From an uncultured Bacteroidales bacterium (GTDB lineage Bacteria > Bacteroidota > Bacteroidia > Bacteroidales > F082): 57,739 nucleotides of DNA. The notes under the pieces are model-generated. The model worked only from the letters and a program-made list of their open reading frames with translations, was not told the origin of the DNA and ran no database searches. The stretch is from NCBI GenBank assembly GCA_900318085.1, contig ONJF01000010.1:1-57739 (forward strand). Direction: 5' to 3'. The translations under genes were made by a program, and so were the position numbers. This document shows, piece by piece, positions 39,380 through 55,800 of this stretch. The stretch's first letter is position 1, and each line of letters opens with the position of its first letter.

Positions 39380-40439
39380 CTTTCACCTCCTTCTTCATTG
39401 TCGCTGACTGCGTCTCGCTGTCGGCATCGCCCATCTGCGGGGACGCAGATGGCGACAATGTGTTTTGATATTGCTCGTAGCTCTCCTTGACGAACTCTGT
39501 CATGCTCGTCATGGCATTCTCGCTTTCCAAACTAGAGGTCGTATACTTGGCGAACTTTACCAAGTCGGCCACTTCCATAGTCTCCTTCAACTTACTGTAG
39601 GTCTCTTGCGAGAAATGCAGCGGCTTGACTTCCTCCAGGATGTCGTCGGTGGTCATTTCAACGGCGTTAACTCCAAACTGACCTTCGATATATTCGCGGG
39701 CGATGTCGGTGAGCGAGGAAAAATATTCCTTCACCTTACCCGATTGCCAGAGCTTCTGCTGACGCAGGTTCTCCAAGTCGCTGACAGCCTTGTCGTAAGG
39801 TGGGATGACGGGACCTCGGACAATATTGCCGTTCTCATCGACCCTACGCTTGCGTCGACGCACAAGAAGCCAAATGCCCAATACGAGCAACACAAGCAGC
39901 AGGAACGCCAGAATCCAGGGGAAGACCTCCTTCATCGTAACAGGTGCAGAGATAGGATCCACAATGGGCTTAAATGCTTGTGTCGTGTCGACAGTCATTG
40001 TGGTCGAATAAAGACGGATAGGATTGGTATAAGCCTTCAAACGATTTGGGTCATCAAACGAACGAGCATAGGTAAGGCCAACAGACGGCACTTGGATTTG
40101 GCCCGTGTCGAAAGTCATCAAGGTCAACTGCTGCTTCACGATGACATTGCTGTCGGCATCGGCGGTGCGTTCCACCTCGCTGCGTTTGATGATGTCGAGT
40201 TGCTCCGACAAGGTGTCGCTGGTGAAGTCGTTCCATTCCACGAACCAGCCATAGGGCACCTTGAGGCTCAAGTCGAGCGTGAAAGGCTTGCCGACTTGCA
40301 CATCAGTGCTTTCGACCTTGCCGTCCACCTCCACATTTTGGGATAGGTTATTCCCTATTTGGATTTGTGGAGACGCAAAGCATTGCGTCTCTACAACCCA
40401 AAACAATAGGGTTAGCACAAACAAAACATATTTCTTCAT
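39372..40439 (-). CDS. Membrane protein of the Bat operon, BatD-like beta domain plus DUF4381-like tail
   Basis: Uncharacterised but usual at this operon position. The 355-residue product has a signal peptide followed by a beta-sandwich region (about 35-165: KVESTDVQVGKPFTLDLSLKV), one membrane segment (about 172-192) followed by RRRKRR, and a cytoplasmic helical part (YDKAVSDLENLRQQKLWQSG, EYIEGQFGVNAVEMTTDDIL). The end of the signal peptide, VVETQCFAS, is encoded by a 28-bp palindromic repeat at 40367-40394. It overlaps both neighbours: the DUF58 stop by 4 bp and the batA start by 8 bp. Confidence 0.85.
   Translation of the reverse strand: MKKYVLFVLTLLFWVVETQCFASPQIQIGNNLSQNVEVDGKVESTDVQVGKPFTLDLSLKVPYGWFVEWNDFTSDTLSEQLDIIKRSEVERTADADSNVIVKQQLTLMTFDTGQIQVPSVGLTYARSFDDPNRLKAYTNPIRLYSTTMTVDTTQAFKPIVDPISAPVTMKEVFPWILAFLLLVLLVLGIWLLVRRRKRRVDENGNIVRGPVIPPYDKAVSDLENLRQQKLWQSGKVKEYFSSLTDIAREYIEGQFGVNAVEMTTDDILEEVKPLHFSQETYSKLKETMEVADLVKFAKYTTSSLESENAMTSMTEFVKESYEQYQNTLSPSASPQMGDADSETQSATMKKEVKDV
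40367..40394. repeat. 28-bp palindrome read as VVETQCFAS in the signal peptide region
   Basis: GTGGAGACGCAA, 4-nt centre, TTGCGTCTCTAC: one mismatch between arms. Same length and family as the copies at 50922-50949 and 53050-53077. Confidence 0.9.
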
Positions 40440-41314
40440 CTTCTTGCCTCCCTTTTCTTAAAGAGTTGCATCAAAGGTTTCACATAGTCTTCATCGGTGT
40501 AAATCAGTGCGTTGTCGATACCGTGTTTGGTAAACTCGCGATTTAGAGACGCTGATTTATATTGGATCATCTCCTGATAGGCACGATGCCAAGCGCGACT
40601 CGAGGTGTCAACCCAGCGTTCCTTGCCCGTCTCCGAGTCGCGGAACTTCACCAGACCCACCTTGGGGATGTCCATCTCGCGGCGGTCGGTAATGCGCAAG
40701 GCGACAAGGTCATGCTTGTTAGCCGCAATCTGCATCTCTTTCTCAAAGCTCTTGTCCGTCATGAAGTCGGAGATGAGGAAGGCCGTGGTGCGGCGCTTGA
40801 TGGCCGAGGTCAGAAAACGCAGGCCCTCGCCGATGTCGGTGCCGCGTTCTGTCGGCTTGAAGTCGACAATCTCGCGGATGATGCGCAGGATGTGCGAACT
40901 GCCTTTCTTGGGCGGGATGAACTTCTCGATCTTGCTGCTGAAGAAAATGACACCCACCTTGTCGTTGTTCTGGATGGCAGAAAACGCCAAGACGGCTGCC
41001 AATTCGGCCGTCAGGTCACGCTTCGACTGGCTCTGCGAGCCGAAGTCGTTGGAACCCGACACGTCGATGAGCAGCATCACCGTCATCTCACGCTCTTCCT
41101 CGAAGATCTTGACGAAAGGCTTGTTGAAGCGGGCGGTGACGTTCCAGTCGATATTGCGGATGTCGTCGCCGTACTCGTACTCGCGCACCTCGCTGAAGGT
41201 CATACCACGCCCTTTGAAGGCGCTGTGGTACTGTCCCGAGAAGATGTGGTTCGAGAGGCCTCGCGTCTTAATCTCGATTTTGCGGACTTTCTTGAATATT
41301 TCTGTTGATTCCAT
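40436..41314 (-). CDS. DUF58 domain protein of the Bat operon
   Basis: Cytoplasmic VWA-like protein that accompanies MoxR ATPases. The 292-residue product has LSNHIFSGQYHSAFKGRGMT and FSEVREYEYGDDIRNIDWNV (the DUF58 core, about 20-58), then a VWA-like part with LLIDVSGSNDFGS (about 86-98), and RRTTAFLISDFM. It follows moxR after an 86-bp repeat-filled gap and overlaps the next gene by 4 bp. Confidence 0.94.
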   Translation of the reverse strand: MESTEIFKKVRKIEIKTRGLSNHIFSGQYHSAFKGRGMTFSEVREYEYGDDIRNIDWNVTARFNKPFVKIFEEEREMTVMLLIDVSGSNDFGSQSQSKRDLTAELAAVLAFSAIQNNDKVGVIFFSSKIEKFIPPKKGSSHILRIIREIVDFKPTERGTDIGEGLRFLTSAIKRRTTAFLISDFMTDKSFEKEMQIAANKHDLVALRITDRREMDIPKVGLVKFRDSETGKERWVDTSSRAWHRAYQEMIQYKSASLNREFTKHGIDNALIYTDEDYVKPLMQLFKKREARR

Positions 41315-41340
41315 ATATAAATCAAACCATTATAATTTTT

Positions 41341-41394
41341 GTCGGACGCACGCGGTGCGTCCCTACAGCGGCTGCCACGGTGTGACAGCCCTAC
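41341..41394. repeat. Palindrome pair between moxR and the DUF58 gene
   Basis: 41341-41366 is a GGACGCAC/GTGCGTCC-type hairpin. 41368-41394 is a 27-mer (GCGGCTGCCACGG then TGTGACAGCCCTAC) repeated exactly at 50728-50754. Confidence 0.85.
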
Positions 41395-41400
41395 AACCAA

Positions 41401-42393
41401 TTACGGAACCTCGATGGTATTTAGGATTTCGTTGATGATTTCTTCGGTGGTGATATTCTCAGCCTCTGCCTCGTAGGTCAAACCGATACGGTGGCGCAGC
41501 ACATCGGGGGCAACAGCACGGATGTCCTCGGGGATGACGTAGCCACGGTGCTTGATGAAAGCGTAGGCCTTGGCTGCCAGTGCCAGGTTGATGGTGGCAC
41601 GCGGCGAGCCGCCGTAGCTGATCATATTGGCGAACTTCTTCAGTTTGTAGTCGGAGGGATAACGTGAGGCGAAGACGATGTCGGTGATATAGTTTTCAAT
41701 CTTCTCGTCGAGATAAATCTCGCGGCACACCTCGCGGGCACGGATGATGTCTTCAGGCTTCACCACAGCGTTGATTTTCGCGCCAGTGCTGGCAATCTGC
41801 TGACGCAGAATCAATTTCTCTTCTTCTTTCTTGGGGTAGTTGATGACCACCTTCAGCATGAAACGGTCCACCTGAGCCTCAGGCAACGGATAGGTACCCT
41901 CCTGCTCGATAGGGTTTTGGGTAGCCATGACGAGGAAGGGATCCGGCAGTTTGAATGTCTCGTCGCCGATGGTCACCTGATGCTCCTGCATGGCCTCGAG
42001 CAAAGCGCTCTGCACCTTGGCAGGAGAACGGTTGATTTCGTCGGCCAGGACGAAGTTGGCGAAAATGGGGCCGCGACGCACCACGAACTCCTCCTTCTTC
42101 TGGCTGTAGATCAGCGTACCGATGAGGTCGGCAGGCAACAGGTCAGGAGTGAATTGGATACGGGCGAAGTCGGCATCGATGGCACTAGCCATCGACTTGA
42201 TGGCCAAGGTCTTGGCCAGGCCAGGCACACCTTCAAGCAGGATGTGGCCGTTGGCCAACAGGCCAATCAAAAGGCGTTCGGTCATCTGCTTCTGTCCGAC
42301 GATGACCTTGTTCATTTCGAGGTTGATGAGGTCGAGGAATTGACTCTCACGTTGGATTTTTTCGTTCAGTTCACGAATGTCAGTTTCTATCAT
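41401..42393 (-). CDS. MoxR-family AAA+ ATPase
   Basis: Chaperone-like ATPase thought to assemble or activate the VWA proteins encoded downstream. The 330-residue product has Walker A GVPGLAKT (about 55-62), Walker B FVLADEINRSPAKVQSALLE (about 112-131), sensor 1 VMATQNPIEQEGTYPLPEAQ and the arginine-finger stretch VDRFMLKV. It is first in moxR-DUF58-x-batA-batB-batC-batD-batE. Promoter TATTTTTG lies at 42527-42534, giving a leader of about 125 nt full of CTTCGAC-type repeats. Confidence 0.96.
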   Translation of the reverse strand: MIETDIRELNEKIQRESQFLDLINLEMNKVIVGQKQMTERLLIGLLANGHILLEGVPGLAKTLAIKSMASAIDADFARIQFTPDLLPADLIGTLIYSQKKEEFVVRRGPIFANFVLADEINRSPAKVQSALLEAMQEHQVTIGDETFKLPDPFLVMATQNPIEQEGTYPLPEAQVDRFMLKVVINYPKKEEEKLILRQQIASTGAKINAVVKPEDIIRAREVCREIYLDEKIENYITDIVFASRYPSDYKLKKFANMISYGGSPRATINLALAAKAYAFIKHRGYVIPEDIRAVAPDVLRHRIGLTYEAEAENITTEEIINEILNTIEVP

Positions 42394-42435
42394 TGCTTAT
42401 TTGTTTAGTTTGTTCAATTAAAGCAGGTTGTCGAG

Positions 42436-42502
42436 TGCTGAGCTTGTCGAAGTATCGAAGCACCGTCTTTCTATCTGTCGGCCCTTCGACGAGCTCAGGG
42501 GC
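42436..42502. repeat. CTTCGACnnGCTCA repeats in the moxR leader
   Basis: GTGCT...AGCAC hairpin containing TGAGCTTGTCGAAG (42436-42463) and CCCTTCGACGAGCTCAGGG (from 42481). Relatives: 10459-10480, 23051-23080, 44827-44848, 53121-53140. Confidence 0.88.
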
Positions 42503-42526
42503 CTTGGCCCCTCGTCAAAAACCGTG

Positions 42527-42534
42527 CAAAAATA
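42527..42534 (-). promoter_or_regulatory. -7 promoter element of the moxR-bat operon
   Basis: TATTTTTG on the minus strand. It is the only such element seen before moxR. Confidence 0.6.
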
Positions 42535-42610
42535 GCGGTTATTTAGCTTGAATAACTCCTATTTAATAATTTTATTGCAGGAAAAGGGTTGCGGAATCGA
42601 AAAAAAACTG

Positions 42611-42618
42611 TAATTTTG
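42611..42618 (+). promoter_or_regulatory. -7 promoter element of the candidate small RNA
   Basis: TAATTTTG with a TTG at 42589-42591, 19 nt upstream, matching the Bacteroidetes -33/-7 spacing. No long open frame follows. Confidence 0.6.
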
Positions 42619-42623
42619 CAGGC

Positions 42624-42775
42624 AGTTGGTCGCGGAAAACGGAACGAAAAACAAATGAATTATCAAGACGAGAGGGACGGGCCATTAGACACGACACCCC
42701 CCGCGATAACAGATTAAGCCCATGCTGCGGATAAGGTTAAGCTTTGCTCCTTTCAAGCGTGGGCTTTCTTTTTGT
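42624..42775 (+). ncRNA. Candidate small RNA of about 150 nt
   Basis: A promoter-terminator unit without a convincing protein gene. A long-range helix is possible between GTTGGTCGCGG (42625-42635) and CCGCGATAAC (42701-42710). A second hairpin, AGCCCATGC against GCGTGGGCT, is followed by TTCTTTTTG, a typical terminator. It could be a 6S-like or lineage-specific RNA, but no known class was recognised. A 20-codon open frame starting at 42655 (MNYQDERDGPL...) lies within it and leaves a leader-peptide reading possible. Its 3' end overlaps the last codons of the opposite-strand gene at 42753. Confidence 0.5.
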
Positions 42776-43199
42776 TGATTTCGATATTGTAATAATACTT
42801 GCCTCCTTTTTGGAATTGAACTGCCAGACGGACATTTTCTTTTTTCCCATCAATCATACACTTACATTTAAAATTCAAGTATCCAATTATGTTTGGCCCA
42901 TCAGTTTCCTTGGAATTTCCCCAATTATTGTATTCAGCGTATTTGATGAGTTCTGGTAACATAAGCGTTGCGGCGACTTTTTTGAAATAGATAGCCTCGC
43001 CAAAAGCAGTTTTCCTTGCCGAAGTCACTGAAATCGTTATTGGTAGCCCGGTATCTATGTTTATAATTGTCATTCCAGAATACTTATTCTTAATGTATTC
43101 GAAAACAAGTTTGCGTAATTGCTGTAGTTTAAGACGGGACCATTCGTTTGGCGTTTCTGCTTTTGGAATAACTGATTGTTTGTACTTATTAGATTTCAT
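42753..43199 (-). CDS. AT-rich orphan protein, possibly polyvalent-protein LPD/barnase-like
   Basis: Not firmly recognised. The 148-residue product (start chosen at MKSNKYKQSVIPK; an ATG at 43262 is possible) has no signal peptide. Its middle (KYSGMTIINIDTGLPITISV) and end (VRLAVQFQKGGKYYYNIEIN) recall domains carried by phage and conjugative-element polyvalent proteins (LPD3 or barnase/EndoU-like). Base composition is visibly more AT-rich than its neighbours, which suggests transfer. Its stop lies within the candidate RNA's terminator hairpin. No mobility gene remains next to it. Reality as a gene is likely; function is a guess. Confidence 0.55.
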   Translation of the reverse strand: MKSNKYKQSVIPKAETPNEWSRLKLQQLRKLVFEYIKNKYSGMTIINIDTGLPITISVTSARKTAFGEAIYFKKVAATLMLPELIKYAEYNNWGNSKETDGPNIIGYLNFKCKCMIDGKKENVRLAVQFQKGGKYYYNIEINKKKAHA

Positions 43200-43350
43200 A
43201 TCATTTGCATTATACGACGCAAAGGAAAACCATCTGTCAAAACCTATCCATTGATTAAACATTTGTAGTCGACAGTAGTCGTTTGCTGTCGGATATATTA
43301 TTGAATATCGGTAAAGTAATTAAAACCATTTAGCAATTCAAATTATTCGT

Positions 43351-43358
43351 TATTTTTG
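43351..43358 (+). promoter_or_regulatory. -7 promoter element of the aspartate kinase gene
   Basis: TATTTTTG, 21 nt before the ATG. Confidence 0.6.
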
Positions 43359-43378
43359 CATTTTCAAAACCAGAATCA

Positions 43379-44662
43379 ATGATCAAGAAAATCTATAAAT
43401 TCGGTGGCGCGTCGGTGAAAGATGCCGATGCCGTGCGCAACTTGGCACAAATTGTCAGTCAGCACAAGGACGAGGACATCATGTTGGTGGTCTCTGCCAT
43501 GGGCAAGACGACTAATGCCCTCGAAAAAGCTTTGGCCAACTTCCGCGAACAAGATGGCAACCTTGGCATGGATGCCCTGCACGAGGTCATCGCCTACCAC
43601 GACGGCATCATCCAAGGCCTTTTCGATGGCAACACCGACCCACGTTTCGACGAAAACATCGCCAGTCTCTTCATCGAACTTTGGGAAAAACTGCAGAAGA
43701 CCGATACACCCTATGACTACCAATACGACCAAACCGTTTGCTATGGCGAACTCATCTCGACCAGCATCATCCACGAATACCTCAGCAAGTGCGACATCCC
43801 GACACGTTGGCTCGATGCCCGAAAATATGTCATAGCCGAAGACGAGGCTCACTACCGCGCCGCCAACCCCGATTGGGACGAGACAAGACTCAAAATCAAC
43901 AAATTGAACGATGAGCATATTCGGGGCATCGTATGCCTGACGCAGGGTTTCATCGGTGGTACAGCCGACGGCAAACATAGCGTCACCCTAGGACGTGAAG
44001 GCTCTGACTTCACCGCGGCCATCTTCGCCAACTGCCTCGATGCGGAGGAGGTCACCATCTGGAAGGATGTGGACGGCCTGCTCAACGCCGACCCGAAACG
44101 CTTCGCCGACACTGTGCAACTGCCGCACATCCCCTACTCCGAGGCTATCGAGTTGGCTTTCTACGGTGCCACCATCATCCACCCCAAGACTATCAAGCCG
44201 TTGCAAAACAAAGGGATAACGCTAAAGGTGCAGTCATTCCTCCACCCCGACCACGAGCCCTCGCTCATCGACGGTGGCCATCGTAAAAACGACGAGAGCA
44301 TCCCCTCTTTTATCGTCAAGGACAACCAAACGCTAGTCTCCATCTCGCCCCGCGACTACTCGTTCATGGACGAACGCAACCTGAAGACCATCTTCGAAGT
44401 CTGTGCCGATCTGAACATCCATGCGAACATGATCCAGACCTCCGCCTTGATGCTCTCGTTCTGCTTCGACAGCAACGAACAGAAGCTGAAACAGTTGAGA
44501 GCCAACCTTAAAGACGGTTTCAGTGTCAAATACAACGACGGCCTGCAATTGTTCACCATTCGCCACTATCAAGACGGCTTGGAAAGCGAGTTCATCAAAG
44601 GGAAGAAGGTTTTGGTGAAACAAGGGAGTAGGAGTACAATGCAGTTTGTATTAAGCTGTTAA
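43379..44662 (+). CDS. lysC: Aspartate kinase
   Basis: First step of the aspartate pathway (lysine, threonine, methionine): ATP-dependent phosphorylation of aspartate. The 427-residue monofunctional protein begins with the kinase signature YKFGGASVKDADAVRNLA (usually KFGGTSV; here Ala replaces Thr), has TQGFIGG, TLGREGSDFTAAIFA (about 203-217), WKDVDGLLNADPK (about 226-238), and a C-terminal ACT pair (about 305-427: TLVSISPRDYSFMDERNLKT). No fused homoserine dehydrogenase is present. Alone on its transcript; followed by a 289-bp gap made of repeats. Confidence 0.95.
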   Translation: MIKKIYKFGGASVKDADAVRNLAQIVSQHKDEDIMLVVSAMGKTTNALEKALANFREQDGNLGMDALHEVIAYHDGIIQGLFDGNTDPRFDENIASLFIELWEKLQKTDTPYDYQYDQTVCYGELISTSIIHEYLSKCDIPTRWLDARKYVIAEDEAHYRAANPDWDETRLKINKLNDEHIRGIVCLTQGFIGGTADGKHSVTLGREGSDFTAAIFANCLDAEEVTIWKDVDGLLNADPKRFADTVQLPHIPYSEAIELAFYGATIIHPKTIKPLQNKGITLKVQSFLHPDHEPSLIDGGHRKNDESIPSFIVKDNQTLVSISPRDYSFMDERNLKTIFEVCADLNIHANMIQTSALMLSFCFDSNEQKLKQLRANLKDGFSVKYNDGLQLFTIRHYQDGLESEFIKGKKVLVKQGSRSTMQFVLSC

Positions 44663-44691
44663 CACCCAACAACACAGAAACAACTCCCCCT

Positions 44692-44782
44692 GCCGTCATG
44701 GCGGAGGGACATCCGCCATCTCCTGAACAGGAAGGAGACGCCTTAGCTTCAGGAGATCGCGGATCGAGTCCGCGATGACGGC
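44692..44782. repeat. Cruciform repeat of about 90 bp
   Basis: GCCGTCATGGCGGA at the left pairs, with one mismatch, with TCCGCGATGACGGC at the right. Inside, TCTCCTGAA pairs with TTCAGGAGA. A CTTCGACAGGCTCAGGG repeat follows at 44827-44848. The gap 44663-44951 holds these repeats and the next promoter, and no gene. Confidence 0.85.
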
Positions 44783-44909
44783 CTATGGGTCGGTGTCACC
44801 CGTAAAAGCACCGTTCCTTTTAGTTGGCCCTTCGACAGGCTCAGGGACCTTTGTTCTGACATTTTTTTCAAAAAATCAGTTAAAAGGAATAACCTTTCTT
44901 TGTTTTTCC

Positions 44910-44917
44910 TAAATTTG
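44910..44917 (+). promoter_or_regulatory. -7 promoter element of the FAD/Fe-S oxidoreductase gene
   Basis: TAAATTTG, 34 nt before the ATG at 44952. TTTG at 44899-44902 is too close to serve as -33. Confidence 0.5.
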
Positions 44918-44951
44918 CGCCCGCATTATAAGACTCAAAAACACATTCTAT

Positions 44952-47900
44952 ATGTACAAAATCGAGAAACACCCCATCTTGGACATCCCGCAGGAAGACC
45001 TTGTGGAATTCCAATATGAAGGCAAGACCGTCAAAGGTCAGCGCGGCAAGACCATCGCCGCCGCCCTTCACCAAGCCGGTTATCCCGTCCACAGCCACTC
45101 GCTCGACGGCCGCAACCGAAGCCTCAACTGCGGTATCGGCAAATGCGGTGCCTGCGAGATGCTGGTCGATGGCAAGATCCGCCGTATCTGCATCACCAAA
45201 GTCGACGGCGTCAAGGAAGTGCGCCGCATCGACAAGGAGGACACCATCCTTCCCGAGCCCAAGGAGCAGCAGCCCCGTGAGGTGAAGGTCTACAAGACCC
45301 AAGTCGCCATCATCGGTGCCGGCCCCGCGGGTCTCGCCTGCCGTGAGCAACTCAACGCCTTCGGCATCAGCAACATCGTCGTCGACAACAACGCCAACAT
45401 CGGTGGTCAGTTCAATATGCAGACCCACCAGTTCTTCTTCTTCGAGAAAGAGAAGAAATTCGGCGGCATGCGTGGCTTCGACATCGCCAAGACCTTGGCG
45501 GGCGACAACCACGAAGGCATCCTGCTGAACAACACCGTTTGGGACCTCCTTGAAGGCGGTCGCGTGGCCATCAAGAACATCGTCACTGGCGAGATTGGCT
45601 ACATCGATGCACAACATCTCGTGGTTGCCACGGGTGCCGTGCCTTTCATGCCGACCTTCGAGAACGACGACGTGCCGGGCGTTTATACCGCTGCCGTGTT
45701 CCAGAAGATGATGAACCAAGAGCACACCTTGTTGGGTAAGAAAGTCCTCACCGTGGGCGCTGGCAACATCGGCTACCTGACCTCGTATCAAGGCATGCAA
45801 GCTGGTGCCACCATCAAGGCCATCATCGAGGCCATGCCCCGCGAGGGCGGCTTCCCGGTGCAGGCCAACCGCGTGCGCCGTCTCGGCATCCCGATCATGA
45901 CCAGCTATGTCCTGGTGCGCGCCATCCCCAACGCCGACTACACTGGCATCACAGGCGCCGTCATCGCCAAGTGCGAGAACTTCAAGGCCATCCCTGGCAC
46001 TGAACAAGTCATCGACGACATCGACATCATCAACATCTGCACTGGCCTTATTCCCGACAACCAACTGTTGGTGAAAGGCCGCGAGGTCTTCGGCCTCAAC
46101 ACCTATGGTGCCGGCGATGCCATCCGCATCGGCGAAGGCACCAGCGCCGTACTGCGTGGCAAACAAGTCGCCTACGAGGTGGCCCAAGCCATTGGCGTGC
46201 GTTTCAACTACGACGATTATCTTGAGATTTCAAGACAATATATCGACTCGCAACAGCATCCTGTGCGTCTCCTTGAGAAGCCCAACCTGCCCACGCCCGA
46301 GCGCATGATGCAGAAGGCTTTCGTGCAGGCTGACTGTCTCTACGGCTTCGCCTGCAACCCCTGCTCGTTCAGCTGCCCGCAAGGCGCCATCACCAAACCT
46401 TCCACCAGCAGCACGCCGACCATCGACTACAACAAGTGCATCGGCTGTATGCTGTGTGTCTCCAGTTGCCCGGGTCTGGCCATCTTCGGCTACGATGTGC
46501 AGAAGTCGACATGCTTCCTGCCCATCGAATATGAAGCACAAGAAGGCGCAGAGGTCTATCTCGTCGACAACGACGGCCAAAAGATTGGCGAAGGCGTCAT
46601 CGAGAAAATCCTCAAGAAGTCGAACAAGACCAATGTGGCCCGCGTGAAAGCCCGTTCTTCACGTCCCTCTGGAGAGGCCAGCAGAGTGTTCGAGTTGACC
46701 GATGTCAAAGGCTTCATCCTGAAAGACCGTTACAACGCCAACAAGGAACTCACCACACCGATTTCACCCAAGAAACTGGCCGAAGGCGAAAGCGAGACCT
46801 ACGTCTGCCACTGCGAGGACATCAAACTCGACCGCGTATTGCGCGTCATCGGCAATCGCAAGACCATATCCGTGGATGAGCTGAAGCACATCACCCGTAT
46901 GGGTATGGGTCCCTGCCGTGGCAAGCGTTGTATCCCACGCGCCCGTCAGATCCTGCGTTCCTACGGCATCGAGTTGGTCGGCGACGCCACACCGCGCGCC
47001 CCGCTGTCGAACCAAGTCAGCCTTGGCGACCTCTACAACCCACACACCAAAGAGACCTTCATCTTCCCCGAAATGAACGGCGTGAAAAAAGAACAGGTCG
47101 AGGTGTTCATCGCGGGTGGCGGTATTGCAGGTAGCGCCTTGTTCCGTTACTTCTCGGAAGCCGGCAAGAAACCCGTGATGATCAACTACAGCCGTGGCGC
47201 TTCGTGGCGTTGCATCGGTGGCGGCCGTCCGGCCTTCTCCAACCCCGACATCGCCGACATCGCCGTGCACAACCACGAGATCTTCAAGAAGATGCAGGCC
47301 GAGCACAACATCAACTACCACCCGACGCATTATGTCAACTTGGTACACGATGAGGCCACCTACAACTCCTTGGATGCCTCACGCGCTTGGAGTGACGCCT
47401 ACATGATTGAACGCAAGGACTTCAAGAAGGAGATTTCGCCGCTGTGGGACGACAGCAAGGACACCTATAGCCATGCCCTCATCACCCGCGACTGCTGGCA
47501 GGCCACGCCTGGCCGCGTCATCGACTACATCCGCTGGATCGGCGTGCAGCAAGGCGGTCGCTACTTCGAGGACTGCGAGCTACTCCATGTGCAGAAGGTG
47601 GGCGGACTCTATGTCACCTTGGTGCGCACCCACGAAGGCGAATTCATCGAGTACACCTGTGACCACTTCGTCAACGCGATGGGTTGGGGTGCCGAGAAGT
47701 TCAACGACATGCTGGGCTTAGACACGGGTCTCTATCCTGTGAAGCACCAAGCCTTCATCACGCGCCGTCTGCCCATGATGGGACCCAACGGTGGCCCGCT
47801 CGACATGATCATCGACCGTCGTCACTACAAGGGCTTCAGCGCCGTCTACGGACAGCAGTGGGCCCACACTGGCCAAATCATCGGCTGTGCCAGCCCCGAC

Positions 47901-48221
47901 ACCGACGCTTACGAGGCACGCCAGAACATCAAGTACAACAGCAAGGAGTTCTTGGAGATCGTCTCCGAGGTCTTCGCCGAGTGGATCCCCAACTTGGGCG
48001 AAGTGAGCTTCTTGGCTTGCTGGGCCGGTCGTTACACCGAGCCGCGATACATCGTCGACCCGGAGGTCGGTATCCTCACCGGATTGCGCGGCCACGGCTT
48101 CATGCTCGGCCAATACCTCGCCAAGTTGTATGTGGACAAGTACCTCGGCAAGGAGGTGCCTGGCTACATGAAGGATTTGGCCTTGAGTGGCAAGGGGTTG
48201 AGTGAGAACGCGTTCAAATAA
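44952..48221 (+). CDS. Multi-cofactor FAD/iron-sulfur oxidoreductase fusion
   Basis: Probably an amino-acid or opine-type dehydrogenase; substrate unknown. The 1089-residue protein joins, in order: a [2Fe-2S] domain (C60, C65, C68, C80); an FAD/NAD(P) pyridine-nucleotide oxidoreductase (GAGPAG 122-127, GAGNIG about 269-274); a two-cluster [4Fe-4S] ferredoxin (C462, C468, C471, C475 and C496, C499, C502, C506); a BFD-type [2Fe-2S] domain (C619, C621, C655, C660); and a C-terminal DAO-type FAD domain (GGGIAG 722-727). Elsewhere these parts are separate subunits (hydrogen cyanide synthase, sarcosine oxidase or proline dehydrogenase types). No signal peptide, so cytoplasmic. Single gene with its own promoter and terminator. 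Confidence 0.9.
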   Translation: MYKIEKHPILDIPQEDLVEFQYEGKTVKGQRGKTIAAALHQAGYPVHSHSLDGRNRSLNCGIGKCGACEMLVDGKIRRICITKVDGVKEVRRIDKEDTILPEPKEQQPREVKVYKTQVAIIGAGPAGLACREQLNAFGISNIVVDNNANIGGQFNMQTHQFFFFEKEKKFGGMRGFDIAKTLAGDNHEGILLNNTVWDLLEGGRVAIKNIVTGEIGYIDAQHLVVATGAVPFMPTFENDDVPGVYTAAVFQKMMNQEHTLLGKKVLTVGAGNIGYLTSYQGMQAGATIKAIIEAMPREGGFPVQANRVRRLGIPIMTSYVLVRAIPNADYTGITGAVIAKCENFKAIPGTEQVIDDIDIINICTGLIPDNQLLVKGREVFGLNTYGAGDAIRIGEGTSAVLRGKQVAYEVAQAIGVRFNYDDYLEISRQYIDSQQHPVRLLEKPNLPTPERMMQKAFVQADCLYGFACNPCSFSCPQGAITKPSTSSTPTIDYNKCIGCMLCVSSCPGLAIFGYDVQKSTCFLPIEYEAQEGAEVYLVDNDGQKIGEGVIEKILKKSNKTNVARVKARSSRPSGEASRVFELTDVKGFILKDRYNANKELTTPISPKKLAEGESETYVCHCEDIKLDRVLRVIGNRKTISVDELKHITRMGMGPCRGKRCIPRARQILRSYGIELVGDATPRAPLSNQVSLGDLYNPHTKETFIFPEMNGVKKEQVEVFIAGGGIAGSALFRYFSEAGKKPVMINYSRGASWRCIGGGRPAFSNPDIADIAVHNHEIFKKMQAEHNINYHPTHYVNLVHDEATYNSLDASRAWSDAYMIERKDFKKEISPLWDDSKDTYSHALITRDCWQATPGRVIDYIRWIGVQQGGRYFEDCELLHVQKVGGLYVTLVRTHEGEFIEYTCDHFVNAMGWGAEKFNDMLGLDTGLYPVKHQAFITRRLPMMGPNGGPLDMIIDRRHYKGFSAVYGQQWAHTGQIIGCASPDTDAYEARQNIKYNSKEFLEIVSEVFAEWIPNLGEVSFLACWAGRYTEPRYIVDPEVGILTGLRGHGFMLGQYLAKLYVDKYLGKEVPGYMKDLALSGKGLSENAFK

Positions 48222-48255
48222 GAATGCTGAATGCTGAATTAGGAATGATGAATGA
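48222..48255. repeat. GAATG heptad repeat
   Basis: GAATGCTGAATGCTGAATT and AGGAATGATGAATGAG directly after the oxidoreductase stop. Confidence 0.8.
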
Positions 48256-48290
48256 GGCTGTCGCAGGTTTGCGGCAGCCTTATTTTATTA
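48256..48290 (+). terminator. Intrinsic terminator after the oxidoreductase gene
   Basis: GGCTGTCGCA, short loop, TGCGGCAGCC (one mismatch), then TTATTTTATT. Confidence 0.8.
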
Positions 48291-48396: not shown

Positions 48397-48412
48397 CGGC
48401 AAAAACAACAAT

Positions 48413-49426
48413 ATGAGCATCTGGGAAGAAATAGAAAAACTGATACAAACTTACGAGAACTTGGGGATTGGGCAACAAGTGGACTACGACAAGTTCTATT
48501 TGTACTCACTTATCACCCACTCTACCGCCATTGAAGGCTCAACAATCACTGAGGTGGAGAACCAACTCTTGTTTGACGAAGGTTTAACTTCCAAAGGCAA
48601 AAACATCAATGAGTATTTGATGAACTTGGACTTGAAGGCGGCTTACGAAGCCAGTATTTCAATGGCAAAAGCCCACACTGAGATAACGACAGAATGGATA
48701 AAAAAGATGGCTTCCTTGGTGATGAAAAGCACTGGCAGCACTTATAAAACCGCTTTGGGTGAATTCTCATCCGCCAACGGAGACATAAGATTGGTGAATG
48801 TTAGTGCTGGTATCGGAGGCGCATCGTATATGGATTTCCACAAGGTACCCGATAGATTACAGAATTTCTGCAACAATCTGAATGACAAGCGAAAAAGCAT
48901 TAGCAAAGAAGACAAAAAAAGCCAATACGAAATCAGTTTTGACGCTCATTATGAATTGGTGACTATCCATCCATGGGTTGACGGTAACGGCAGAATGGCC
49001 CGACTGCTCATGAATCATCTTCAATTTGAATACGGCCTAATACCCACAAAGATCCTGAAAGAGGATAAATCTGAATACATTCAAGCGCTTATCGACACTC
49101 GAAGAGATGAAAACTTGCAGATTTTCAGAGACTTCATGTTCAAAACGCTAAGAAAAAACCTCCAGCAAGATATCCAATCCTTTGTTGATTCGCAAAACGA
49201 AGTGGGGAGAAAATCCTCAAATAGTAGGGAGAAAAACAAAGGAAGTAGGGAGAAAATCCTTGAGCTGCTGCGTGAGAACCCCAAACTCACCACGGCAGGT
49301 TTGGCACAAGCAGTGGGCATCTCATCCAAAGGTGTAGAGAAGCAACTTGCACATCTAAAGCGAGAAGGATTGCTTCGCCGCATCGGTCCCGACAAAGGAG
49401 GCCATTGGGAGGTCGTTGATTTGTAA
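48413..49426 (+). CDS. Class II Fic protein with C-terminal winged helix
   Basis: Fic enzymes transfer AMP (or related groups) from a nucleotide to target proteins. The 337-residue product has the N-terminal inhibitory motif STAIEG (S37-x3-E41-G42, class II autoinhibition), the Fic core HPWVDGNGRMAR (about 186-197; catalytic His186, anion-hole GNGR) and a C-terminal winged-helix domain (about 285-337: REKILELLRENPKLTTAGLA, GISSKGVEKQLAHLKREG). Between them, residues about 264-284 hold three (G/S)REK/GRKS units encoded by the GTAGGGAGAAAA repeat also found twice in its promoter. No antitoxin gene is adjacent. The HTH suggests autoregulation; this is inference. Confidence 0.92.
   Translation: MSIWEEIEKLIQTYENLGIGQQVDYDKFYLYSLITHSTAIEGSTITEVENQLLFDEGLTSKGKNINEYLMNLDLKAAYEASISMAKAHTEITTEWIKKMASLVMKSTGSTYKTALGEFSSANGDIRLVNVSAGIGGASYMDFHKVPDRLQNFCNNLNDKRKSISKEDKKSQYEISFDAHYELVTIHPWVDGNGRMARLLMNHLQFEYGLIPTKILKEDKSEYIQALIDTRRDENLQIFRDFMFKTLRKNLQQDIQSFVDSQNEVGRKSSNSREKNKGSREKILELLRENPKLTTAGLAQAVGISSKGVEKQLAHLKREGLLRRIGPDKGGHWEVVDL
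49202..49256 (+). repeat. Three in-frame GTAGGGAGAAAA copies within fic
   Basis: GTGGGGAGAAAA at 49202, GTAGGGAGAAAA at 49224 and 49245. Spacing is 22 and 21 bp. They encode GRK, SREK and SREK before the winged helix. Confidence 0.9.
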
Positions 49427-49429
49427 CAA

Positions 49430-49462
49430 ACAAAAAAAAGCCCAAGAATCGCTTCTCGGGCT
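49430..49462 (-). terminator. Intrinsic terminator between the convergent fic and OM-protein genes
   Basis: AGCCC.AGAA / TTCT.GGGCT with one mismatch. On the minus strand it is followed by eight T. Confidence 0.8.
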
Positions 49463-49486
49463 AAATTATTAGGCAAAAGTCGCTAA

Positions 49487-50029
49487 TTACCACTCGATGC
49501 CGATGCGCAAGGAGATGCCTGATGGGCTGATCTGTTGTATTCCATGATGATAATTATCATTCTCGTCATAGTATGAATAATCATCATCAATTTTGTCGTA
49601 GTAGGTTCCCGCGACCATCACATTGATGGCGAAGTCGCGCTTGGAGGCGAAACGCACGCCGAAGGCAAGATCGCCATAAGCACCTACCTCGTTACCGACG
49701 AAGGATCCAAGGCGCAGGCTTACGATGGGACTTACAATTTTAGTGTTGTTGAACTGGTAGCGCACATTGGTGTAGATAGGCACAAGGGCATGATCATTAT
49801 TGAAATCGATGCCGAGTCCGATACCCGCATAGATGTGGCCGTTGAAATAAAAGCCATGAGTGGTCGACAGGTTGATGGTGTTGCGCATGTTCTTGTCGAA
49901 ATGCCAGGAGTTGCCATATTCGAGGAAGCCTTGGTAGCCGTTGGGGACGCGGACCTTTCCTTCTTGTTCTTGAGCGAAGACGCTCGTTGCCATGAACAAC
50001 ATGACAAACGCTAAAACTAATTTCTTCAT
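49487..50029 (-). CDS. Small outer-membrane beta-barrel-like protein
   Basis: Function unknown. The 180-residue product has a signal peptide (MLFMATSVFAQ, cleavage about 19) and alternating hydrophobic/aromatic strands typical of an 8-stranded OmpA/OmpW-like barrel: GYQGFLEYGNSWHF, GFYFNGHIYAGIGLGIDF, VPIYTNVRYQF, GAYGDLAFGVRF, AINVMVAGTYYD. It ends in the aromatic SLRIGIEW, a common OM-protein C-terminus recognised by the BAM machinery. 164 bp of featureless sequence lies between it and the gene upstream. Confidence 0.82.
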   Translation of the reverse strand: MKKLVLAFVMLFMATSVFAQEQEGKVRVPNGYQGFLEYGNSWHFDKNMRNTINLSTTHGFYFNGHIYAGIGLGIDFNNDHALVPIYTNVRYQFNNTKIVSPIVSLRLGSFVGNEVGAYGDLAFGVRFASKRDFAINVMVAGTYYDKIDDDYSYYDENDNYHHGIQQISPSGISLRIGIEW

Positions 50030-50193
50030 GATTGATAGATTTTAAGTGTTAGTTACTCGTTTTCAATTTTGTATTATAACGCTAGGCCCTTGGTTTTATT
50101 ATGTATTGGACCTTTTCGCAACAATGGATTTGCCACAAAAATTATGCCGTTTTGCTTGTCTTGGGTCTTATTTAGTCGGTTTTCTGCGAGACC

Positions 50194-50637
50194 TCATTCC
50201 CTCACGAATCCCATGATGGAATGGACATCTTGTCCTATGTCGTTAAGTTCGGCGGGATTGAGGAAGTCGATGGTCATATTTGTTTCGGTCAAAGTTGTGA
50301 TGGTGCCAGTCATATCATATAACATCACTGTATCGTTGACCTTGTGACGAATGCCGTCTTTTATGATCATTTTGTCTCCCTTCAAGGTATAATAGCCACC
50401 GTCCTCTTCATTGTCGTCCGCGATCGCTGTTCCATCCTTCCTGAATTCGACGGTGTGACCGACCACTGCCTCGGTAAGAAACTCATCAAAGTCATCGAAA
50501 GACTCGCCACCTATGGTCATCGACACTTCGGTGATTGTCCATTTCCCATAGACCTGGGGTTGTTTGTTGCAGGATGTCATCGCTGCCATGGTTGCCGCCA
50601 CCAGCAGCAAGACCATGATTTTCAGTGTGTTTTTCAT
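50194..50637 (-). CDS. Lipocalin-like lipoprotein
   Basis: Function unknown. The 147-residue product has a lipoprotein signal (AAMTSCNKQ, Cys about 23), then the lipocalin-like opening VYGKWTITEVSMTIGG and strands VGHTVEFRKDGTAIADD, GGYYTLKGDKMIIKDG and NDTVMLYDMTGTITTLTE. The GxW and following strand pattern match the small calycin-like lipoproteins abundant in Bacteroidetes. It lies after a repeat-filled 129-bp gap downstream of the leucine-rich-repeat gene. Confidence 0.8.
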   Translation of the reverse strand: MKNTLKIMVLLLVAATMAAMTSCNKQPQVYGKWTITEVSMTIGGESFDDFDEFLTEAVVGHTVEFRKDGTAIADDNEEDGGYYTLKGDKMIIKDGIRHKVNDTVMLYDMTGTITTLTETNMTIDFLNPAELNDIGQDVHSIMGFVRE

Positions 50638-50680
50638 TGTATTGAGGTTTTGATTATTTGTTTGTTTTCCGTTTCGGTTT

Positions 50681-50754
50681 GTAGGGCTGTCGTACCACGG
50701 CAGCCGCTTATTGTCATGGCTGCACAGGCGGCTGCCACGGTGTGACAGCCCTAC
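50681..50754. repeat. Palindromic element with GTAGGGCTGTC ends
   Basis: Left arm GTAGGGCTGTC...GGCAGCCGC (50681-50707) and right arm GCGGCTGCC...GACAGCCCTAC (50728-50754). The right arm is identical over 27 bp to 41368-41394. Confidence 0.88.
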
Positions 50755-50766
50755 AGGACCGCGTTT

Positions 50767-52872
50767 TTATTTCACCACAAATTTCTGTGTCATATCGCCG
50801 ACGCTGATGAAATACACACCTTGCGGCAAAGCCGATACATCAATCTGTTGGGTTTCGGCGGTGATTTGGCCTGACATCAGGGTTTGACCCATTATGTTGG
50901 TGATGCGGTAGGTTTGGGTCGGTAGAGATGCAAAATTTTGCGTCTCTACAACGAGGACGCCATTGGTCGGATTGGGATAAACCGCAAACATTGCATCCTC
51001 ATGATCTTCGATGCCGCTGTGATATTCCTTGTAAACGGCATCGCAGTCCTCGTCGCCGTATTTAAAGAACAGTTCGCCCTCGCGCCAATAGCAGCGCATG
51101 CCTTCCACGCGGTAGTTCTTACCACGGTTCATCAGCCTTTCGGGGAAGAAGCTGGTGAGGTGGCCGATGCCGCACACAATGCTGCCACTGAAGATGTCGT
51201 TCTCATCGCTCACCTCTAACAACCTAAACGTTTGGTCTCCGTAGTGGTAATAATCCACCGCGTCCACATGCATCGTGAGGGTTTCCGTGCCGACCTTGAT
51301 AACCCAACTGTCGCCTACTTGGGCACCAAGGTCATAAAGCACGGTAAATTCCTGCAAATCCCCGTTCCACCAATACACCAAGCCGTCTTCCTCGTAAATG
51401 TATTCGCGTGTCACCTCGGAATGTCCGTCCTTATCATATAAGGTGTTGGTGCGGATGATAATCTGAACATCCTTATGGTTGACGGTGGTGTCGGCGGCAT
51501 ATTCCAGATGCTGGTAGGTGATGCTGCCATTCTCGTTCTCGATTTCATAGTACCATTCGGCGCCACTGAATCCAACCAAACCCGTGCCGCAATCTTCGAT
51601 GATGTTGGTAAAACCACTCCAGTTCTCATCGTTCTGGTAGGCTTCCAAAGTGCCACACGGCACGATGATCGGAATGCTGTCAGAAAAATGCCATACTCCA
51701 GAATACGGATTAATGAGCAAATCAGGTGGAACTATGGCTTTGATGGCAATTGAATCAAACTGCGTATTATCAAAGGCAGATTCGAAAAGTCGATTCACAG
51801 ACAATCCCAAAACCAGACGATTATACCCGACACAAGAATCAAAAGCACGCGCATCAATGGTTTCTACAAAGTCTGGAATCCTCAGTTCTCCATCTAGTCC
51901 AATGCAGTGACTAAATGCTCCAACACCAATACTCACCAAACTATCAGGGAAAACGAACTCTTGGAGATTTGAGCAATTCTCAAAAGCAACTCCTTTAATC
52001 TCTGTCAAGCCTTCAGGAATGTTAATCTCAGAAAGACTGGTGCAATTTTTGAAACAACCCGATTCTATTATCTTCAAACTCTGAGGGAGATGTACTGATG
52101 TTAAATTGGAGCACATGAAAAACATATAGTCACTTGTCTCTTCCCAGCCTTCAGGTATTTCAATGGATGAAAGGCCTGTGCATTCGGAGAAGACATAATC
52201 GCCTATCTGTTCCACAGTTTCAGGAATCATAAGATTACCAGTAAAGCCATCACAGCCTGAAAAGGCATAGTGTTCTATTTTGGTCAACGATGAGGGTAAT
52301 ATCAATTCTCCAGTGAAGCCCTTGCAACTCCTAAAAGCATCTTCCCAGATTTCCTTTAGTCCTTCGGGAAGAACAAGTTGCCCCGTAAACTCGCAACCTA
52401 AGAAACTCGAGTAGCCTATTTTTTGCAACGACTCGCCCAAAACAAGGTGCGTAAAGCCAGTGCATTCTGAGAAAACGCCTCCGTATGTGTGTTGTGTTTG
52501 ATCAGTTCCCAATTCGATTACGCTGTTGGGGATGACGAGGGTTCCCGTAAAGCCCGTGCAATAGGCGAACGCTCCAGATTGGATGGTGGTCACTGTATTG
52601 GGAATCACTAGTTCACCCGTCAATCCTTCACATGAATAGAAAGCCCTATTGGAGATGGTTGTTACTGTATATATGCCTCCATTATACTCCACTGTTTCAG
52701 GGATGACAAGTTCGCCTTGGGCGTTTTCGCCGTCAATATGACCGTTGAGGCTCACATGAGGCGGGTCGTCACTTAAAATGGTATACAGCAAGTCTCCTGA
52801 TTGGAAATCATAAGCCACGGCTTGCATGGCAAAACTGACCAAAATCACCAAGGTTAAAACTATCTTTTTCAT
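50767..52872 (-). CDS. BspA-type leucine-rich-repeat protein with T9SS sorting domain
   Basis: Surface or secreted protein; BspA-like LRR proteins are often adhesins, but no ligand is implied here. The 701-residue product has a signal peptide (SFAMQAVA, cleavage about 20), LRR_5 repeats over about 60-400 (e.g. LVIPNTVTTIQSGAFAYCTG, INIPEGLTEIKGVAFENCSN), a shared module (about 425-620: NGSITYQHLEYAADTTVNH, CGIGHLTSFFPERL, EGMRCYWREGELFFKYG) and a type A sorting domain (VYPNPTNG...YRITNIMGQTL...GVYFISVG). VVETQNFAS inside the sorting domain is encoded by a 28-bp palindrome at 50922-50949. It starts 19 bp after the related upstream gene. Confidence 0.9.
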   Translation of the reverse strand: MKKIVLTLVILVSFAMQAVAYDFQSGDLLYTILSDDPPHVSLNGHIDGENAQGELVIPETVEYNGGIYTVTTISNRAFYSCEGLTGELVIPNTVTTIQSGAFAYCTGFTGTLVIPNSVIELGTDQTQHTYGGVFSECTGFTHLVLGESLQKIGYSSFLGCEFTGQLVLPEGLKEIWEDAFRSCKGFTGELILPSSLTKIEHYAFSGCDGFTGNLMIPETVEQIGDYVFSECTGLSSIEIPEGWEETSDYMFFMCSNLTSVHLPQSLKIIESGCFKNCTSLSEINIPEGLTEIKGVAFENCSNLQEFVFPDSLVSIGVGAFSHCIGLDGELRIPDFVETIDARAFDSCVGYNRLVLGLSVNRLFESAFDNTQFDSIAIKAIVPPDLLINPYSGVWHFSDSIPIIVPCGTLEAYQNDENWSGFTNIIEDCGTGLVGFSGAEWYYEIENENGSITYQHLEYAADTTVNHKDVQIIIRTNTLYDKDGHSEVTREYIYEEDGLVYWWNGDLQEFTVLYDLGAQVGDSWVIKVGTETLTMHVDAVDYYHYGDQTFRLLEVSDENDIFSGSIVCGIGHLTSFFPERLMNRGKNYRVEGMRCYWREGELFFKYGDEDCDAVYKEYHSGIEDHEDAMFAVYPNPTNGVLVVETQNFASLPTQTYRITNIMGQTLMSGQITAETQQIDVSALPQGVYFISVGDMTQKFVVK
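50922..50949. repeat. 28-bp palindrome read as VVETQNFAS in a sorting domain
   Basis: GTAGAGATGCAAAA against TTTTGCGTCTCTAC: one mismatch. Family of 29615, 40367 and 53050. Confidence 0.92.
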
Positions 52873-52891
52873 TGTCTTATGTTTTTGATTG

Positions 52892-55800
52892 TTATTTATT
52901 CACCACAAATTTCCTTGTCACGTCGCCCACGCTGATGAAATACATGCCCTCGGGCAGGTTGGACACATCAATCTGCTGTGTCTCGGCAGTGAAGGTGCCA
53001 GATTGCAGGGTTTGGCCCATGAGGTTGATGATGCGATAGGTTTGGTTTGGTAGAGACGTTGCGCGCAACGTCTGTACAAACAAAACGCCGTCTGTTGGAT
53101 TAGGATAAACCGTTAAGATTCCTGAACCCGTCGAAGGACCGTCTTCCCCAATTCCATGGTGATATTTTTCATACATGGCATCGCAGTCCTCACTGCCATA
53201 TTTGAACACCAGCTCATCCTCGCGCCAATAGCAGCGCATGCCTTCCACACGGTAGCCTTTGCCGCGGGTCATCAGCCTTTCAGGGAAGAAACTGGTAAGA
53301 TGGCCGATGCCGCAAACAATAATGCCGCTGAAGAGGTCTTCATCATCGCTCACCTGCAGCATCCTGAACAGTTTCCCATCGTATTCGTACAACTCCACCG
53401 CGTCGACATGCATGGTGATGGATTCCGTGCCGACCTTGATGACCCAACTGTCGCCTTCTTGGGCACCAAGGTCATAAAGCACGGTGAATTCTTCCAGTTC
53501 TTGGTTCCACCAATACACTACATTATCCTCTTCATAGACATATTCACGAGTCACTTCGCTATGCTCGCCTTTGTCGTAAAGGGTATTGGTGCGGATGATG
53601 ATTGTCACATCCTTGTGATTGACGGTGGTGTCGGAGGCATATTCCAGATGCTGGTAAGTGATGCTGCCGTTCTCGCCCTGGATCTCGTAGTACCATTCGG
53701 GATTGCCTTCGCCGATGGGAAGGTATTCAAAATCAGCGACAATGGTCACATCGAAATTGGGCATGACAAAGCGGTTGTCCACCACAGGCACTTTGAGGGT
53801 CTCGTCGTCGGTCTTGTAGGCCACAATCGAATTGAGCATATAACTGGGTTCAAGCGTGACAGCACAAGTGACCTCGTCACCCATCATAACCGAAGAGACA
53901 GAAGGTATGACCTGGTTGCCGTTTTCGTTGCCTACGACATTGATATTATAATGGTTGCAGTCGTCTTCAACATTGCCAAACCATACTTGATATCCCCAAA
54001 TATTGCTATACGCCTCTGTCATTCCACATGGAACGGTCATTACTGCTTGCGTGTTGTATGGGAAAGCATTCGCGCCAACATTACTACTAGGTGTATCCCC
54101 TAAACAAGCCAGGGCCATCTCGCCAGTAGGATAGGCTTGTCGGAATGCATCTTCTCCGATGAAGACATTGGGGTTACCCAAAATGACCCATCTAAGATTG
54201 TCACACGCCATAAAAGCACGATAGTTTATCCTATCAACAGCATGACCAACATACACTGCTTCCAAACTTTGGCAACCATAAAATGCATTCCAACCTATGT
54301 CTCCCACAGGTATAGTAACAGAGTGCAGACCGTTACAGCGGTTAAATGCCGATTCTCCTATCAATGTCACGGAATTGGGAATCGTGACCTCCGTCAGATA
54401 GTTTGCTCCTGCAAATGATTGTTTCGCAATTGTATCTACAGAACTTGGAATGGCATAGGAACTCGCCCTTCTTCCTGCGGGATAAAGCATCAATATGGTT
54501 TTGGAAGGATTAAACAGCACTCCGTCCACTATCTTGAATCGATCGTTATTAGGATCCAATTCGATAGTTTCCAAACCATGGCAATAGGAGAATGCACCAT
54601 CGCCAATGATCTCAACATTTTGAGGGATATAAACAGTTTGAAGACTATCACACCCATAGAAAGCAGACTCCTCGATTGCAACAACCGACTCTGGAATAGT
54701 TATGGAAGCGAGACTATGACAAGAAGAGAACAAATATTGCGGGATGGTATCAAGTCCCTCGGGCAATGTTGCCGAAGTTAAAGAAGTACATTCGGAAAAA
54801 GCGGCATCGCCTAAATAAGTCAATGTAGCAGGAATGGAAACAGAATTCAAATTATAACAACTTTGAAAAGCCGTGCCTCCAATAGTTGTAACTGTAGCCG
54901 GAATCGACACTTCTTCCAAATTAATGCATTGATAAAAAGCGCTATTCCCTATCTTGACCAGTTGGGAAGGGATTGATACGGACCTCAAGTTGCCACAATT
55001 ATAAAACAGATGGTCATCAATGATGGTCATCGACTCGGGAAGGTGCGCTTCAACAAGATTGTTGCACAGTCCAAAGGCGGATCCCCCAACCGTCGTCACA
55101 GAATTGGGGATGTCAATAGAGGTCAAGCCGGAATTATAAAAAGCGCTGCCTTCAATGGTTTGAAGACCATCAGGTAATGCTATCGAAACCAAAGCCCCAC
55201 AACCTTCAAACGCGCGATTTCCGATGCTTGTCAAATGACTCGGAAGAGTAACAGAGGAAAGAGACGAGCAAATTCTGAAGGTTTGTTCAGGAATGCCAGT
55301 AATTGCATCTGAAAGCGTTGCCGAGACCATATCTGGGCAATGCACAAACAACCCTTCTCCAATGCTTTCCACAGAATTGGGAATGGTGATGGAAACCAGT
55401 CCAGAATTGGTAAACGCACCAACTCCAATGGAAACGACTGTTGTGGGGATGGTCACCGAGGTCAGACTTTGACAATTCCCAAAAGCCAAATCGCCTATTT
55501 CATTTACTGTATAGACTCTGCCTTGATAGGCCACGGATGAAGGGATTGTCACCTCCCCACTGTAAAAATTGTAATCGGTATCAAAATAAGTCACTTTCAC
55601 CGTGTTGTTACCTGTAACTATGAAATACAACCCGGTTTCCTCGTCCTGGAATTTCACACCTATCCAAGGATTGAATGTAGGAATGTCGTTGGCATCACAC
55701 CTGCTCTTCGAATATAGTCCACGGCATTTAAAATACAGGAAGTTGTCATATCCTTTGCAAAGGAAACCATCCGAACTACCCGGAACGGGAGGATACAATT

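Follow-up and report, generated by a model that had tools for sequence, protein, structure and literature searches.

A double-foot GTAG palindrome in protein loops of a Bacteroidales bacterium, with different cores at the same junction in orthologous genes

The 57,739-nucleotide stretch of DNA analysed in this study (contig ONJF01000010.1 of assembly GCA_900318085.1, from an uncultured Bacteroidales bacterium of the F082 lineage; hereafter the window) holds a 28-bp palindrome that is inserted in frame into protein genes. To judge by its anatomy, the palindrome is a double-foot repetitive extragenic palindrome (REP) of the GTAG kind, and it appears to be unusual in its long residence in a protein loop and in the different core types found at one position. 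The explanation that we prefer, and consider probable, is that copies of this REP are inherited in permissive protein loops and that other members of the family later supply the sequence with which they are rewritten. The element would be a hairpin in which fixed 9-bp arms enclose a palindromic core of many types, its intergenic copies lying mostly just past stop codons and its in-gene copies surviving where a protein loop is permissive and one of the two stop-free reading frames is met. An early insertion into a loop of the sorting domain of the type IX secretion system (T9SS) would then have reached many secreted proteins through gene duplication and inheritance, and the later rewriting of the loop copies would change the core and its residues and leave the rest of the gene as it was.

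In the source genome (3.24 Mb in 93 contigs), the repeat consists of arms GTAGAGACG...CGTCTCTAC around a variable core, which between exact arms was always 10 bp long (60/60). A total of 117 copies were found at up to three arm mismatches, compared with 2 for a reversed-pattern control; 92 copies were found at up to one mismatch and 78 were exact. The copies that were read (88 of 117) lie in 1.22 Mb of stretches, or 38% of the genome, picked for repeats or sorting domains. Their arms are near constant and their cores are many and mostly palindromic, with GTGTGCACAC in 30 copies, CGGCGCGCCA in 10, CGCCATGGCA in 7, CGATTAATCG in 7 and 23 rarer types in addition. Beyond the source genome, the pattern occurs in 69 of 72 genomes of the genus (0-92 copies each at up to one mismatch), in 15 of 47 genomes from the rest of the order and, as an exact match, in 37 genomes of an even draw of 296 across the phylum that included the source genome, nearly all of them with few copies. 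Additionally, 109 stretches of viral contigs carry the pattern.

Four copies lie in the window, and zero matches to the pattern arose in 100 dinucleotide shuffles of it. Three of the copies stand in frame inside genes, as a previous reading of the sequence alone (the sequence-only reading) had reported, each with one arm mismatch: at 40367-40394, in the signal peptide near the start of a BatD-like gene (39372-40439, minus strand); at 50922-50949, with core CAAAATTTTG, in the sorting-domain loop of a gene for a BspA-type leucine-rich-repeat protein (50767-52872, minus strand); and at 53050-53077, with core TTGCGCGCAA, in the homologous loop of the tandem paralogue of that gene (52892-56692, minus strand). 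The T9SS sorting domains (TIGR04183) of the latter two genes span 50770-50982 and 52898-53110, both on the minus strand. Translation returned the peptides that had been named for the three copies, namely VVETQCFAS, VVETQNFASLP and VQTLRATSLP, and the fourth copy (29615-29642) was degenerate and intergenic as described, with three arm mismatches and a position 8 nt after the stop of gene 29651-32518, which is a common site for this palindrome family. As RNA, the four palindromes fold below shuffled controls, with z values of -4.9, -3.1, -6.9 and -5.4. The common minus-strand orientation that had been offered as evidence does not serve as such, since a palindrome has no strand of its own and the strand given for the copies reflects only the direction of the genes. 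The two T9SS genes share blocks of 300 and 166 nt that are 81% and 77% identical at spacings of 2140 and 2128, respectively. Because they are tandem paralogues, the common repeat position is by descent and was counted once, so that the window represents two insertion events; the two T9SS copies have different cores despite their common loop position. The Bat label of gene 39372-40439, which comes from the sequence-only reading, is a putative one; the gene matched only a BatA profile, below the cut-off of that model.

In-frame insertion of the palindrome into protein genes was observed by comparison with repeat-free orthologues at several loci. The BatD-like protein is present in 67 of 71 genomes of the genus, and its near relatives come from Bacteroidales metagenome-assembled genomes, mostly from the ruminant gut and including 'bacterium F082'. 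Among the 68 matches listed, 30 had loci (the one in the window included); the repeat lies in the signal peptide in 7 of these 30 and is degenerate in 1, and in the other 22 the signal peptide is plain and lacks those residues (21 residues in length, vs. 34 with the repeat). A U32 peptidase gene on contig C68 (L142:2060-3895) carries four in-frame palindromes in two frames. Over 30 aligned rows, the repeat is found at site A in the source genome, its nearest relative (G002) and G033, with 27 rows lacking it, and at site B in the source genome and G002 only, with 28 lacking it; sites C and D bear it in several more genomes than sites A and B. Across species, five kinds of repeat occur in loops C and D, namely the double-foot family, the GTAGGGCTGTCAC family, a GACTGCG palindrome, an CATTGCGAGG palindrome and TCAATT-type direct repeats. 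In a Xer recombinase, the repeat is present in 5 of 21 readable loci and absent in 16, a further 9 of the 30 loci having given no loop reading.

Orthologues without the repeat also lack its peptide, except for a few short stretches (e.g., VST at Xer and TVS at U32 site C), which bears out the proposal of in-frame insertion; the repeat-bearing and repeat-free orthologues of the BatD-like, U32 and Xer proteins likewise support the broader proposal of a spreading palindrome that is tolerated in proteins. Relative to the repeat-free relatives, the net gain at U32 sites A-C and at Xer is 9-15 nt by our own count, which is less than the full repeat length and means that part of the loop was replaced; this does not apply to the BatD-like signal peptide. 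Arm-like sequence pre-existing at the empty sites was rejected as a rule, as scores were at background for nearly all loci; the empty sites that stood out are L513 and L514 (0/115 windows as good) and L491 (1/242).

The T9SS sorting domains carry the repeat at one position in many proteins. The genome holds at least 150 such domains (150 of 191 candidates were scored and aligned, a few of the 150 rows being on the wrong strand, e.g., C6_3617, C83_21323 and C33_42351). In a subfamily of 13 domains of the source genome, one loop bears an insert in 13/13: the double-foot repeat, with five cores, in 11, a second GTAG palindrome in 1 and a direct repeat in 1. When the fetched loci of the source genome and its relatives were taken together, 61 of 80 distinct subfamily domains had the repeat at one nucleotide offset, with 18 cores among them, 2 had it at another offset and 17 lacked it, some of the 17 with other inserts and some plainly shorter. 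All five core pairs form in 41 of the 61 domains, four in 17 and three in 3. A sorting domain outside the subfamily (contig C39, 4176-4279) holds two copies, one in each open frame, of which one lies in the loop corresponding to the subfamily loop and the other in a later loop. Three aligned solved sorting domains have gaps of 3-5 residues at the loop position.

The different cores of this loop could be separate insertions, if only a few loops are tolerant and are hit repeatedly. The three kinds of insert in the 13 domains of the source genome agree with such independent re-insertion, as do the other insert families held by U32 loops C and D in other species; at U32 loop C, the insert of G007 belongs to another family than that of its sister row G012, which favours turnover by re-insertion at that loop. 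For the sorting domains, re-insertion would need to strike the same base every time to give 61 of 80 at one exact offset, and the pair G021/G065 has near-identical flanks (2 differences in the 33 nt before the repeat and 1 in the 33 nt after it), yet the cores differ. Overall, we regard re-insertion as a doubtful source of the core differences.

One T9SS gene of ~886 aa was compared across 16 genomes, including one from another family, and its orthologues have different cores at the same junction: GTGTGCACAC in 4, TTGCGCGCAA or close variants in 6 (our own grouping), CGATTAATCG in 4, CGGCGCGCCA in 1 and TGCCATGGCG in 1. The cores seen at this loop are also common elsewhere in the family, and body identity reaches 97% between orthologues with different cores. 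On the best tree of the DNA outside the sorting domain, in which G071 and G019 are partial, the fewest core changes are 8, and 5 of the 13 inner branches are strongly supported; when only the strongly supported branches are kept, the fewest are 5, one above the minimum for five states. Strongly supported sisters with different cores are G007/G012 (94% body identity) and G050/G065 (97%). As a separate observation, the ~886-aa T9SS gene at L295 (genome G074, of another family) is 85% identical to that of the source genome and is a candidate for between-family transfer.

The sequence next to the repeat indicates how much was replaced along with the core. In the core-differing pairs G007/G012, G050/G065, G000/G003 and G021/G065, the 33 nt before the repeat contain 0-2 differences, and in the same-core pairs G004/G042 and G003/G021, the 33 nt after it contain 0 and 3, respectively. 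Two further core-differing pairs have 9 differences before and 19 after (G021/G029, with a length difference) and 4 before and 7 after (G042/G070). Several points weigh against the rewriting of loop copies from other family copies as we propose it. The 33 nt after the repeat contain 5 differences in G007/G012, 8 in G050/G065 and 7 in G000/G003, but 1 in G021/G065. The cores GTGTGCACAC and TTGCGCGCAA are separated by four bases, in two compensatory pairs; 15 of the 16 copies with core TTGCGCGCAA have the arm variant GTACAG, which occurs in 21 of 61 sorting-domain copies (15 of the 21 with this core); and at U32 site D, the three cores of the bearers can be explained by 2 changes, the smallest possible number. 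Profile A1, with which the 80 subfamily domains were found, was derived from insert-bearing loops only (11 of the 13 subfamily domains in the source genome) and so favours bearers, and the genomes compared are metagenome-assembled as far as they are named. Finally, among 38 Y1 transposase loci from 11 genomes, none has a repeat copy adjoining the transposase (8 matches in the source genome and 30 loci of 39 matches in ten relatives).

Since the downstream bases often differ where the cores differ, the exchanged tract is often not confined to the repeat; it seems to continue for some bases on the downstream side. A possible account, although a tentative one, is that paralogues undergo gene conversion over a longer part of the sorting domain, with the core of the donor carried along. 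The genome offers a pool of at least 150 sorting domains, the downstream flanks differ more in three of the four core-differing pairs than in the two same-core pairs, the GTACAG arm is tied to one core within sorting domains and the CGATTAATCG orthologues differ at the neighbouring codons as well. A longer tract does not, however, fit with the few differences upstream of the repeat in the four core-differing pairs, and cores vary also outside of the sorting domains, at Xer and at U32 loops C and D. Another account dispenses with exchange between copies and has point mutation followed by compensation, either hairpin-templated or selected. The two compensatory pairs between GTGTGCACAC and TTGCGCGCAA make point mutation possible there, and REPs beside orthologous rayt genes are reported to carry up to three point mutations relative to one another while remaining palindromic (PMC2817692). 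Other pairs differ at many bases at once (9/28 in G007/G012), and most of the cores concerned belong to types that are frequent at other sites of the family, making mutation unlikely as the general cause. For the preferred reading, that of rewriting from other family copies, we infer that the core was replaced by exchange, through short-tract conversion or template switching; exchange, domain conversion, re-insertion and mutation may also have contributed jointly.

The placement of the 88 read copies relative to genes, which were called by a simple hexamer script and not a standard caller, was biased. A total of 51 copies are intergenic, 2 overlap gene ends and 35 lie inside called genes, such that 53 of 88 are intergenic or boundary-overlapping in a sequence that is 90% coding. 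Of those 53, 45 are no more than 25 nt from a gene 3' end, vs. 16% of random intergenic slots. Inside genes, two frames are possible because the third contains TAG, and the 35 copies are read in a frame giving VET (25 copies), in one giving RD (10) or in the third (0). Sorting domains account for 12 of the 25 VET-frame copies, and a listed sorting domain for 1 of the 10 RD-frame copies. Hosts with Pfam support include GH77, an AlkZ-like protein, two rhamnosidases, a tyrosine recombinase, the U32 peptidase (four copies) and sorting-domain proteins. By our own count of independent sites in supported genes, there are about 6-7 VET sites (BatD-like, sorting-domain main loop, GH77, AlkZ, TPR family, U32 site B and perhaps the C39 main loop separately) and 7-8 RD sites (GH78, GH106, Xer, U32 sites A, C and D, and the sorting-domain late loop in two genes). 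This tally excludes a 601-aa open reading frame on C57 (no Pfam match), small open reading frames on C37 and C43, and the C28 and C44 genes (Pfam below cut-off), and it counts the related genes of C81, C63 and C11 once.

The two stop-free frames are thus used about equally at independent sites, giving no general frame preference, and frame bias was rejected as a sign of selection because both of these frames are occupied. The sequence-only reading had drawn on one common frame and had allowed for a genome-wide bias. The common frame is true of the three window copies, but the T9SS pair counts once and the agreement is then about a 1 in 2 outcome; no such bias was found among the independent sites of the copies read. 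That reading had also allowed that the peptide might be selected, which found no support because the core residues differ between orthologues. In its specific form, selection of the encoded VETxxxxSL peptide for a function in T9SS sorting would be consistent with the single position kept in 61 of 80 subfamily domains and with the orientation of 12 of 14 coding copies of two asymmetric core groups, which avoids Trp or Cys (our own count, of copies that are related). The core residues vary without pattern (RHGT, VCTP, LRAT, QNFA, RLIA), and related domains and solved sorting domains do without these residues, making such selection highly improbable.

The 38 loci with Y1_Tnp transposases, which may or may not be of subclass 2.4, include one with a repeat copy at ~0.8 kb (L016) and four with a copy at ~1.2-1.4 kb; the L016 copy sits 14 bp past the stop of another gene. 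No copy at up to four mismatches lies within the transposase part of the 38 loci, so that in-frame insertion into tnpAREP genes was not seen there, and no REPtron was found beside the repeat in the source genome or the ten relatives. Recognition of GTAG and a hairpin by TnpAREP has been demonstrated for other REPs (PMC8266576), and we infer that a REP-type transposase moves, or once moved, the present family. On five viral contigs (L367, L368, L369, L382 and L388), the palindrome occurs at two places exactly 1857 bp apart; a two-repeat element of this constant spacing was rejected as a transposon, as it sits between apparent phage structural genes in the two of the five contigs that were read. 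Separately, at L552 (genome G081, of another family of the order; 1020 and 1752), two other double-foot palindromes, GTGGCACGG...CCGTGCCAC, lie near a weak Y1 transposase match in a REPtron-like arrangement.

Double-foot REPs, with GT[AG]G 5' and C[TC]AC 3' of one hairpin, have been described for TnpAREP subclass 2.4 (RAYT group 4), which is abundant in Cyanobacteria and Bacteroidetes and whose REPs also occur in frame inside tnpAREP genes (PMC6006769). The present repeat has the same two motifs at the two ends of one hairpin. It differs in that no adjacent cognate transposase was found and in its hosts, which are T9SS sorting domains, the U32 peptidase, the recombinase and glycosidases rather than tnpAREP genes; core replacement at fixed positions, seen here, is unmentioned for double-foot REPs in the available portion of PMC6006769. 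GTAG REPs are 20-40 bp palindromes near gene 3' ends, some of them intragenic (PMC3733652), and the present family resembles that superfamily in its GTAG motif, high copy number, short palindrome and mostly intergenic placement near gene 3' ends with some intragenic copies. In the superfamily, however, GTAG is unpaired at one end, whereas in the symmetric consensus found here it pairs with CTAC, and the hosts listed for the superfamily are Proteobacteria, Cyanobacteria, Chloroflexi and the PVC group rather than Bacteroidales (PMC3733652). The Rickettsia palindromic elements that had been invoked as precedent are a fair one for in-frame insertion, as they too are palindromes in frame inside open reading frames, but intragenic GTAG REPs and double-foot REPs are closer; the Rickettsia elements are set apart by description as CGTC-tagged or longer and of another lineage, compared with the GTAG/CTAC ends of the present repeat (via PMC3733652). 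The nearest precedent for differing repeats at orthologous positions is that of the REPs beside rayt genes, which likewise differ at the same place of orthologous loci yet stay palindromic; in the REPs of that study the differences are up to three point mutations (PMC2817692), whereas in the present family the difference is one of whole core types, lies within proteins and concerns genes that have no relation to a transposase. No account of REPs in T9SS sorting domains was recognised in the open-licence literature, searched mostly at title and abstract level. An article by Higgins from 1988 is said, by its title, to treat REP evolution by gene conversion, the same idea of exchange between copies.

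Other repeats accompany the palindrome in the window. A second GTAG palindrome family (GTAGGGCTGTCAC...) has a copy at 50729-50754 (minus strand), downstream of the T9SS gene, and another at 41369-41394 (minus strand); on contig C81, a paralogue has a relative of this family in the same sorting-domain loop. A palindromic CCTTCGACAGGCTCAGG-type repeat at 53117-53140 (minus strand) encodes GPSTGSG in the linker that precedes the sorting domain. Palindromic repeats of the GACGCATGCGATGCGTC type form three tandem copies with 28-bp spacing at 27462-27544, with one distant copy at 41342-41368, and a 37-bp unit is repeated in head-to-tail copies at 35421-35701. Direct repeats of ATTCAGCATTC/GAATGCTGAATG were noted at 6487-6598, 9265-9322, 11193-11312, 16146-16209 and 48213-48269, and a paralogue on contig C76 has its sorting-domain loop occupied by a similar repeat, read as HHSAFR.

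Transposition is the presumed means by which REP elements spread, and the fate of a landed copy is hard to follow between genes. In the protein loops described here, the junction is fixed by the reading frame and orthology is given by the surrounding gene, so that core changes can be placed on a tree and the exchanged tract can be measured. In a bolder form of the preferred reading, which we consider rather unlikely, copies of the family would exchange genome-wide through their 9-bp arms and little more, rewriting residues at fixed positions of unrelated proteins (sorting domains, peptidase and recombinase) regardless of function. If repeat copies do overwrite one another, non-coding repeats would be able to edit proteins, and the sorting-domain loop would serve as a record of that process.

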